A DNA stretch of 64,000 bases from Spirochaetota bacterium (lineage in GTDB: Bacteria; Spirochaetota; UBA12135; COTS27; JAFLEE01): NCBI GenBank assembly GCA_017302015.1, contig JAFLEE010000009.1:1-64000 (forward strand), given 5' to 3'. The notes beneath the pieces were generated by a model. The model saw nothing but the letters and a program-made list of their open reading frames with translations, ran no database searches and had not been told where the DNA came from. Position numbers and translations under genes: made by a program. This document shows positions 54,901 to 56,781 of this stretch, one piece after another; positions within the stretch are counted from its first letter, which is position 1; every line of letters starts with the position of its first letter.

Positions 54901-55132
54901 GGACCTCGAGGAAACCCGCCACGCTGTCGATATGCCCCGCCGCGGCGAGACGATCCTCAACGTCGACTGGGGCCAGATGGGGGTCGGCGGCGACAATAGC
55001 TGGGGCGCCCGCGTCCACGAGGCCTATATGCTGCGCGCCGACCAACCCAGGGAATACGCTTTTCGCCTGATCGCCGTCGCGGGCCGCCCGACGGAGGAAC
55101 GTCTCCCCGACGAAGAAGGAACGCCCCCATGA
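51920..55132 (+). CDS. lacZ: Large beta-galactosidase (GH2, LacZ type)
   Basis: The 1070-residue protein has the five-domain LacZ order: jelly roll, Ig, TIM barrel (about 350-640), Ig and C-terminal beta-galactosidase small chain domain. Acid/base is Glu470 ([11 protein letters not shown]) and nucleophile is Glu552 ([16 protein letters not shown]). [26 protein letters not shown] is the family signature, quoted here in part as [18 protein letters not shown]. The C-terminal [13 protein letters not shown] is also standard. It hydrolyses terminal beta-galactosides. No signal peptide is evident. It lies 84 bp after the FAD-oxidoreductase gene and overlaps the next gene by 4 bp (ATGA). Confidence 0.93.
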
Positions 55133-56781
55133 CCGATCCCGCCCGAACCCTCGCCGCCGTCAAGCGGGAAAGCCTGCGCATCTTCGACGTGGAGTACGAG
55201 CACCTCCTCCTCGAGGACGGGAGCGAGCTCTTCCTCACCGCGGAGGGGCGCAAGCACGAGGCGCACCTCCACCCCGAGGACCTCTGGGGCGACGCCGAGT
55301 GGATCGCCCGGCGCGCCGTGCGCCTCTCCGGCACCAGTTCGGTCTACCGCATCCGCCTCCAGGAGGGGCTCGAGGTCGTCCTCAAGTGGAACCGCATGGG
55401 CCAGGAGATCCCCGGGGAGACCCACCTCATGGAGGGCGCCGAGAACGTGGTCTTCAATAGCCCCTTCGAGGAGTTCTCCCTGGTGCAGGAATTGGAGCGG
55501 TCCGTTACGGGCCCCGACGCCCCGCGCATCCAGCGCCCCATGGCCATCTATATCCATAAGAGCCCCTCCCAACCCTGGGAACTCGGGCGCGACCTCACCA
55601 AGATCCGCAAGCACGAGGACATCGACCTCCAGCTCGACAAATCCTACGCCGTCGTCTACCGCTGGATCCACGGCTCGGACGTGCTGCAGGCCTTCCAGGG
55701 GGGCGCCCTGGACCAGGCCCGCATGAACGAGGAAACGGCCGCCATGGACCAGCGCCTCGCCGAGGCGGGCTATTTCGTCGCCGACCGCAAGCCCCAGCAC
55801 ATCATCCTGGTGGACCCGCGCCTAGAGGGCGAGGGCCCCGCCCGCGGCCTGGTGGATTTCGAACTCCTCAAGCGCACCGCCGACCATGCGGCCCGCCGAA
55901 ACCGCCAGCGCCGGGAGGCCTATCTCTGGCGCCAGGTCCACCGCTTCGACGTCCGTGGCGGGGGCCTCTCCCCGAACCTCCACCAGGTCGAGATCCTCGG
56001 CGTGCCCTATGTCTGGGGCAACCTGGAGGGCTCCGGCTCCGACCTCTGGGTCGTGGGACGCGACCCCGGCCTCTTCGATTATTTCCGCCCCGAGAAATGG
56101 CGCAAGACGGACAAGGTGAAACTCTCCGCCGGCGGCCAGACCTTCTTCACCACCACGAAGGACGACATCAAACTGGTGTGGAAGACCTCCCGCGTCGGCG
56201 AGATGCCCCACTTGGATTTCGATACCCACCGGGAGGCCGTCACCTTCGGCTTCAACTCGCCCTTCGAAGAAGTCGCCATCGCGCTCCACTTCGCGAAGGC
56301 CGGGGTGCCCGTGGTCTATCCCCGCGCGATCTTCCGCTCCGACAACCGCACCCGTATCCACGAACTCCTCTTCGATCCCAGCCGCTACGAGAGCCACCAG
56401 GATTTCGTCATGCCCGACGGGAAGCCCGCCCTGCGCCGCGACCACTCCTACATCACCCTCTGGGGCTATTGGAACGGCACCGACAACGAACTCTCCGTCT
56501 CCGACGCCCACCACCTCTATCCCATCAACGCCAACCTCGCCTTCAAATACCACCACATCACCGACGCCGAACGCCACGACCTCATGGCCTCGGAGCAGGA
56601 ACGGCTTTGCAAGGCGGGGTATGAGGATTTGAACCGCAAGGGTTCGCATCTTCTCCTGTCTTTGGACGAGAAGAAGAAGATTTTGAGGGATGGGGAGGGG
56701 AGGATTGCGCTGCGGTACTGTAATTTGGGGTTGGTACGAGGGGGGAGTGGGGAAAAAAAGCTCATTTCGGCGTCGGCTTAA
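55129..56781 (+). CDS. Unrecognised protein: two protein-kinase-like folds in tandem, second copy degenerate
   Basis: I recognise no named family for this 550-residue protein. It contains an internal duplication. Copy 1 has K86 (EVVLKW), FNSPFEEFS with E114, a catalytic-loop-like [10 protein letters not shown] (D219 to L227) and LVDFEL (D243-F244-E245), resembling the kinase VAIK, helix C, D-x-K-P-x-N and DFG motifs. Copy 2 has K352, FNSPFEEVA with E380 and [15 protein letters not shown] (N502 in place of D219), but CNL where DFE should be. The K-to-E distance is 28 in both copies. It overlaps lacZ (ATGA), so it is co-expressed with it. The last 60 codons switch from C-ending to G/T-ending codons. 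Fold assignment is inference. Confidence 0.55.

Follow-up and report, generated by a model that had tools for sequence, protein, structure and literature searches.

The window, a 64,000-nucleotide stretch of a Spirochaetota genome, contains a gene (55129..56781, + strand) encoding a 550-residue protein built of two kinase-like domains in tandem, the first with an intact catalytic set and the second degenerate. The protein represents an unnamed new variant within the protein-kinase-like (PKL) superfamily. Whole-genome and contig scans yielded 116 distinct loci of this family, and residue counts were obtained from an alignment of 77 tandem members. Judged from its conservation and gene neighborhoods, the family may have a so far overlooked role in regulating central metabolism, in place of the partnership with β-galactosidase proposed in an initial annotation of the window.

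That annotation had noticed an internal duplication with two K...FNSPFEE blocks of identical spacing (K86-E114 and K352-E380), which was borne out by comparison of family profiles: the N- and C-terminal halves aligned over 248 columns with a probability of 99.9 and an E-value of 1.7e-33, and repetition with separately built alignments gave an E-value of 4.6e-34. An AlphaFold2 model of the full-length protein (pLDDT 89.9, pTM 0.86) displayed a bilobal kinase fold in each half. Its structural matches were kinases covering residues 28-258 and 301-546; the best among those listed was 7cyr (Z 9.9, rmsd 3.7, 165 aligned residues), and RIO1 (1zp9) matched with Z 8.9, rmsd 7.4, and 159 aligned residues. 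When the N-terminal half was modeled alone (pLDDT 91.9), all matches listed were kinases or kinase domains with Z values up to 9.4, among them 4yht (Z 9.4, rmsd 4.0, 144 aligned) and WaaP 6dfl (Z 9.3, rmsd 5.0, 165 aligned). A protein-kinase-like fold of both halves is thus well supported by the models; at these modest Z values, the matches settle the fold but not the nearest PKL family, and PDB families outside the lists may be related as well. The tandem layout would have been called into question by a non-kinase fold or by dissimilar halves; instead, both halves were kinase-like and homologous to each other.

Scans of the window protein against Pfam, NCBIfam, and PHROG gave no match, for Pfam and NCBIfam not even at an E-value of 10. 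In the PDB, the single window sequence found chance matches only and the profile of the C-terminal half none; six weak sequence matches were obtained (E 0.11-1.2), all of them to kinases. The Pfam protein-kinase model matched neither the window protein nor the family N-halves scanned, and the APH, choline kinase, and Kdo/WaaP models gave no match. The commonest weak Pfam match was to the ABC1 atypical kinase domain (PF03109), found in 11 of 76 N-halves with a best E-value of 3e-4 and absent from the window protein. In the library of papers searched, none dealt with such a family, in agreement with the initial annotation, to which no family of this layout was known.

Copy 1 (about residues 1-276; 55129..55956, +) is a catalytically intact kinase-like domain. 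Its beta-3 lysine K86, equivalent to that of the VAIK motif (55384..55386, +), is present in 77/77 members. The FNSPFEE segment of helix C (residues 109-115; 55453..55473, +) contributes the invariant glutamate, which is E115 (77/77 tandem and 14/14 single-domain proteins) and not E114 (72/77 and 9/14) as initially annotated; the other kinase-like residues named then, K86, D219, and the DFE at 243, proved correct. In the catalytic loop D219-R-K-P-Q-H224 (55783..55800, +), D219 and K221 occur in all 77 members, P222 in 72, and H224 in 76. The equivalent of the DFG motif is DFE (residues 243-245; 55855..55863, +), with D243 and E245 invariant. Furthermore, the 14 relatives consisting of copy 1 only carry D219, K221, H224, D243, and E115 without exception, and at K86 11 have lysine and three arginine.

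The PKL superfamily has been classified in 20 families (PMC1821047). The window family shares its fold and the equivalents of K72, E91, D166, and D184, but has a histidine (H224, 76/77) in place of the Mg-binding N171, a valine at the position of the HRD histidine (73/77), and an unusual L-x-G-T-S loop instead of a full GxGxxG loop, and the window protein matches no Pfam kinase model. As in Ser/Thr kinases of the ePK/PknB type, the loop D-x-K-P-x of copy 1 conforms to the conserved [LI]KPx stretch (PMC1821047). Together with the intact catalytic set, this loop suggests phosphotransfer of the Ser/Thr-kinase type; the histidine replacing the Mg-binding asparagine and the missing HRD motif would also be compatible with a different reaction.

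Copy 2 (about residues 280-545; 55966..56763, +), homologous to copy 1 over the 248 aligned columns and covered by the kinase-fold matches to residues 301-546, retains the FNSPFEE segment (residues 375-381; 56251..56271, +) with E380 and E381 in 75/77 members each. Its catalytic loop N502-R-K-G-S-H507 (56632..56649, +) is degenerate: the equivalent of D219 is asparagine in 52/77 and aspartate in only 4/77 members, as the initial annotation had read from the window copy, and H507, the equivalent of H224, is present in 77/77. A DFG equivalent, previously held to be missing, does exist as N532-L-G (56722..56730, +). N532 aligns with D243 and is asparagine in 73/77 members; the family consensus is C-N-F-E, from which the window copy (C-N-L-G) departs at L533 and G534. 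Since asparagine occupies both aspartate positions in most members, the status of copy 2 as a conserved pseudokinase is well supported, in line with the pseudokinase role suggested in the initial annotation. Mean column identity was 58% for copy 2 as compared to 51% for copy 1; with conservation no lower than that of copy 1, copy 2 has been retained by selection and is not decaying.

The 116 loci are distributed patchily across about 15 phyla: Planctomycetota, Verrucomicrobiota, Lentisphaerota, Kiritimatiellota, Spirochaetota, Elusimicrobiota, Omnitrophota, Auribacterota, Nitrospirota, Myxococcota, Thermodesulfobacteriota, Fibrobacterota, Sumerlaeota, and a few others. All taxon-assigned loci derive from metagenome bins, hence single odd phylum assignments may be binning errors. 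The gene is rare, with 8 positive genomes among 393 Spirochaetota (two of these matches being short fragments), 12 among 343 in the Planctomycetota search, and 27 among 367 in the Verrucomicrobiota search; viral contigs and plasmids contained no relatives. On the family tree, the single-domain members form two groups, one of which (L094 and L095) is nested among tandem members, suggesting that the pseudokinase half was lost at least once. At L092/L172 and at L173 the tandem kinase is split over two adjacent frames; at L092/L172, one part ends at the profile position where the other begins, as would be expected from a frameshift, either true or from sequencing. In the window genome the gene is single-copy, and its end branch is among the two longest of the tree (1.28; median 0.35), so that the window protein may be a fast-evolving outlier within the family.

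A GH2 β-galactosidase gene of the LacZ/Bga2A-like type (NCBIfam match; 51920..55132, +) precedes the kinase gene in the window, and the overlap of the lacZ end and the kinase start by the 4 bp ATGA was confirmed from the reading frame coordinates. This overlap had been taken to mean fixed co-expression with a β-galactosidase, a statement which holds for the window genome at most: comparison of the flanks revealed lacZ at 0 of the 115 other loci, and the search for homologues staying beside GH2 genes thus found this neighbor to be private to the window. Coupling to lacZ was dropped as a conserved family trait. It is very improbable that the kinase phosphorylates a sugar freed by the β-galactosidase, although in the window the two genes are probably on one transcript, given the ATGA overlap, and a LacI-type regulator is encoded nearby; besides the complete lack of lacZ elsewhere, the family is strongly conserved despite quite different gene neighbors. 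Of the two substrates once considered for copy 1, a released sugar or a regulator, the former is not supported, and the latter fits better with the recurrent neighbors described below. Directly downstream of the kinase gene (56785-57210), a small Cys-containing, zinc-ribbon-like protein of 141 residues without Pfam match is encoded.

The gene for GTP-dependent phosphoenolpyruvate carboxykinase (PEPCK, PF00821) was the direct neighbor (≤320 bp) of the kinase gene in 9/116 loci, upstream on the same strand in five, downstream on the same strand in three, and divergent in one. Same-strand pairs were tight, and in four loci only 2-27 bp separated the two genes. By chance, 0.06 such loci would be expected, assuming a single-copy gene, 213 usable sides, and 3500 genes per genome, and six changes on the family tree (FastTree) were required to explain the adjacency. 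As an internal control, all examined flanks contained 11 PEPCK genes, 9 of which were located within the nearest 400 bp, a zone that makes up 7.6% of the flanking sequence. When the nearest genes were counted by Pfam family, with some apparently spurious reading frames excluded by eye, PEPCK ranked first upstream and second, after ArgJ, downstream. PEPCK was present in 29/30 kinase genomes, but in Spirochaetota its background is high (257/393 genomes) and no excess was found among genomes with a full-length kinase (4/6); presence per genome was therefore rejected as evidence and adjacency alone was used.

Two of the neighboring enzymes act on the same metabolite pair in opposite directions: at L112, a single-domain kinase gene follows 12 bp after a gene for a 930-residue PEP carboxylase (identified by sequence, not by HMM), giving nine PEPCK and one PEP carboxylase neighbor among the 116 loci; at L116, a single-domain kinase gene lies just upstream of PEPCK. 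Further genes of the PEP-pyruvate-oxaloacetate node, each beside the kinase in single lineages, encode pyruvate/oxaloacetate carboxyltransferase (PYC/OADA; L052, L055, L061), malic enzyme with an ACT domain (L018, L030), PTS enzyme I (L120), and malate dehydrogenase (L041); aspartase/fumarase adjoins L085 and L090, and an ADP-forming acyl-CoA ligase L154. These identities, as well as that of PEPCK, were confirmed by Pfam. Because the other node genes were listed after inspection and several pairs are close relatives, we make a firm statistical claim for PEPCK alone. About 95 of the 116 loci have no node gene as direct neighbor, and none was found as a near neighbor of the window kinase.

PEPCK and PEP carboxylase interconvert PEP and oxaloacetate in opposite directions, and the tight pairing of their genes with the kinase gene suggests control of that switch. 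As a tentative interpretation, with a chance slightly short of even, we propose that copy 1 is a kinase steered by copy 2, with an enzyme of the PEP-pyruvate-oxaloacetate node as its substrate. The observed duplication, fold, residue conservation, and non-random adjacency form its grounds; to these we add, by inference, phosphotransfer, a protein substrate, allostery, and retention of the family role by the window copy. Copy 1 would act as a Ser/Thr-protein-kinase-like phosphotransferase, and copy 2, in which the fold and a conserved pocket persist but the metal-binding and catalytic aspartates are lost, would probably sense a ligand or hold the substrate and thereby tune copy 1. The substrate would probably be PEPCK in many genomes and PEP carboxylase or another node enzyme elsewhere, and the kinase would set the direction of carbon flow among glycolysis, gluconeogenesis, and the TCA cycle. 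More doubtful is the wider proposal of an ancient bacterial family of kinases with a built-in pseudokinase sensor that controls this switch by phosphorylating PEPCK or PEP carboxylase reversibly, its hosts being uncultured members of the PVC group, Spirochaetota, and other bacteria.

Several alternatives to a node-enzyme kinase were weighed. Adjacency to PEPCK might merely reflect shared expression control, for instance during growth on C3/C4 acids, with the kinase target located elsewhere. Variation of the neighbor by lineage (PEPCK, malic enzyme, pyruvate carboxylase, malate dehydrogenase, enzyme I) and the frequent divergent transcription of neighbors with gaps of 75-310 bp would agree with this, but the same-strand PEPCK gaps of 2-27 bp and the tight PEP carboxylase pair, as well as the precedent of plant PEP carboxylase being controlled by a kinase, make it rather unlikely. 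Slightly less remote, yet still unlikely, is a copy 1 that acts on a metabolite as a small-molecule or glycan kinase of the APH, choline kinase, or WaaP type, the pseudokinase half being structural. WaaP ties as best match of the N-terminal half among the matches listed, the L014 fragment (nearest relative, from the same class) and L028 adjoin glycosyltransferase-like genes, and DFE replaces DFG as in choline-kinase-type families, for which a correlated DFG-to-E change has been described (PMC1821047). These points are opposed by the KPx stretch of the catalytic loop, which is of the Ser/Thr protein-kinase type, by recurrent neighbors that are large regulated metabolic enzymes and do not form a biosynthetic pathway, and by the failure of the APH, choline kinase, and Kdo/WaaP models to match.

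We regard it as improbable that the kinase-like fold serves AMPylation (cf. SelO), glutamylation (cf. SidJ), or only nucleotide or PEP sensing at the PEP node. The histidine at the Mg-binding position and the absence of HRD and of a canonical glycine-rich loop would fit such a function, and nearly every key kinase residue is replaced in some kinase family (PMC1821047); yet K86, E115, D219, and D243 are found in normal kinase order and identity.

Among known systems, the UbiB/ABC1 (ADCK) atypical kinases provide both 7cyr, the best listed match to the full-length model, and the commonest weak Pfam match, but the window family has two tandem kinase domains and a different catalytic loop. Eukaryotic JAKs and plant tandem kinases such as Yr15/WTK1 (PMC6170490) likewise carry an intact kinase domain and a degenerate one on the same polypeptide; the window family differs in being bacterial, in having the intact domain first, in that its domains are mutual duplicates, and in having no other recognised domain.

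Plant PEP carboxylase kinase and E. coli AceK phosphorylate metabolic enzymes; these two, together with PknG-OdhI, are the main known examples of kinases dedicated to regulating central carbon metabolism. PknG-OdhI is a metabolic-enzyme kinase system of Corynebacterium (PMC2784874). The role proposed here, a dedicated kinase at a central-carbon branch point, would be similar; no sequence relation of these kinases to the window family was found, and only the proposed role is shared. If our interpretation is correct, large groups of mostly uncultured bacteria would possess an additional layer of metabolic control, exerted by a widespread and highly conserved kinase-pseudokinase family with a link to PEPCK. 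It would also offer a simple bacterial model for the origin of a pseudokinase by duplication and for regulation by a sister domain, natural single-domain versions being at hand. The PEPCK-kinase and PEP carboxylase-kinase gene pairs make the metabolic hypothesis directly testable.

Additionally, some other neighbors were recorded. At five kinase loci (L094:1994-3907, L095, L121, L113, L092), a DUF4914 gene (PF16260) is adjacent or no more than about 4 kb away; DUF4914 is present in 14/28 kinase genomes tested, including the window genome. No paper on DUF4914 was found in a literature search. Its P-loop (GASGGGKS) and DD motif are reminiscent of PEPCK, and a relationship was considered; in a comparison of DUF4914 and PEPCK profiles both motifs aligned, but with a probability of only 20.7 (E 0.0011). 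At L094:4744-5385, the single-domain kinase gene overlaps a downstream gene whose product resembles a β-carbonic anhydrase; such an enzyme would suit a carboxylation node that uses bicarbonate. In four related genomes (L175, L176, L177, L179), ArgJ directly follows a single-domain kinase gene. At L014:1459-1647, in a genome of the window's class, the kinase fragment, identified from about 49 residues, is located at a contig end and overlaps its glycosyltransferase-like neighbor. Finally, in two planctomycetes (L039 and L042), iron-sulfur genes of a hydrogenase/NADH-dehydrogenase-type operon were found upstream of the kinase gene.
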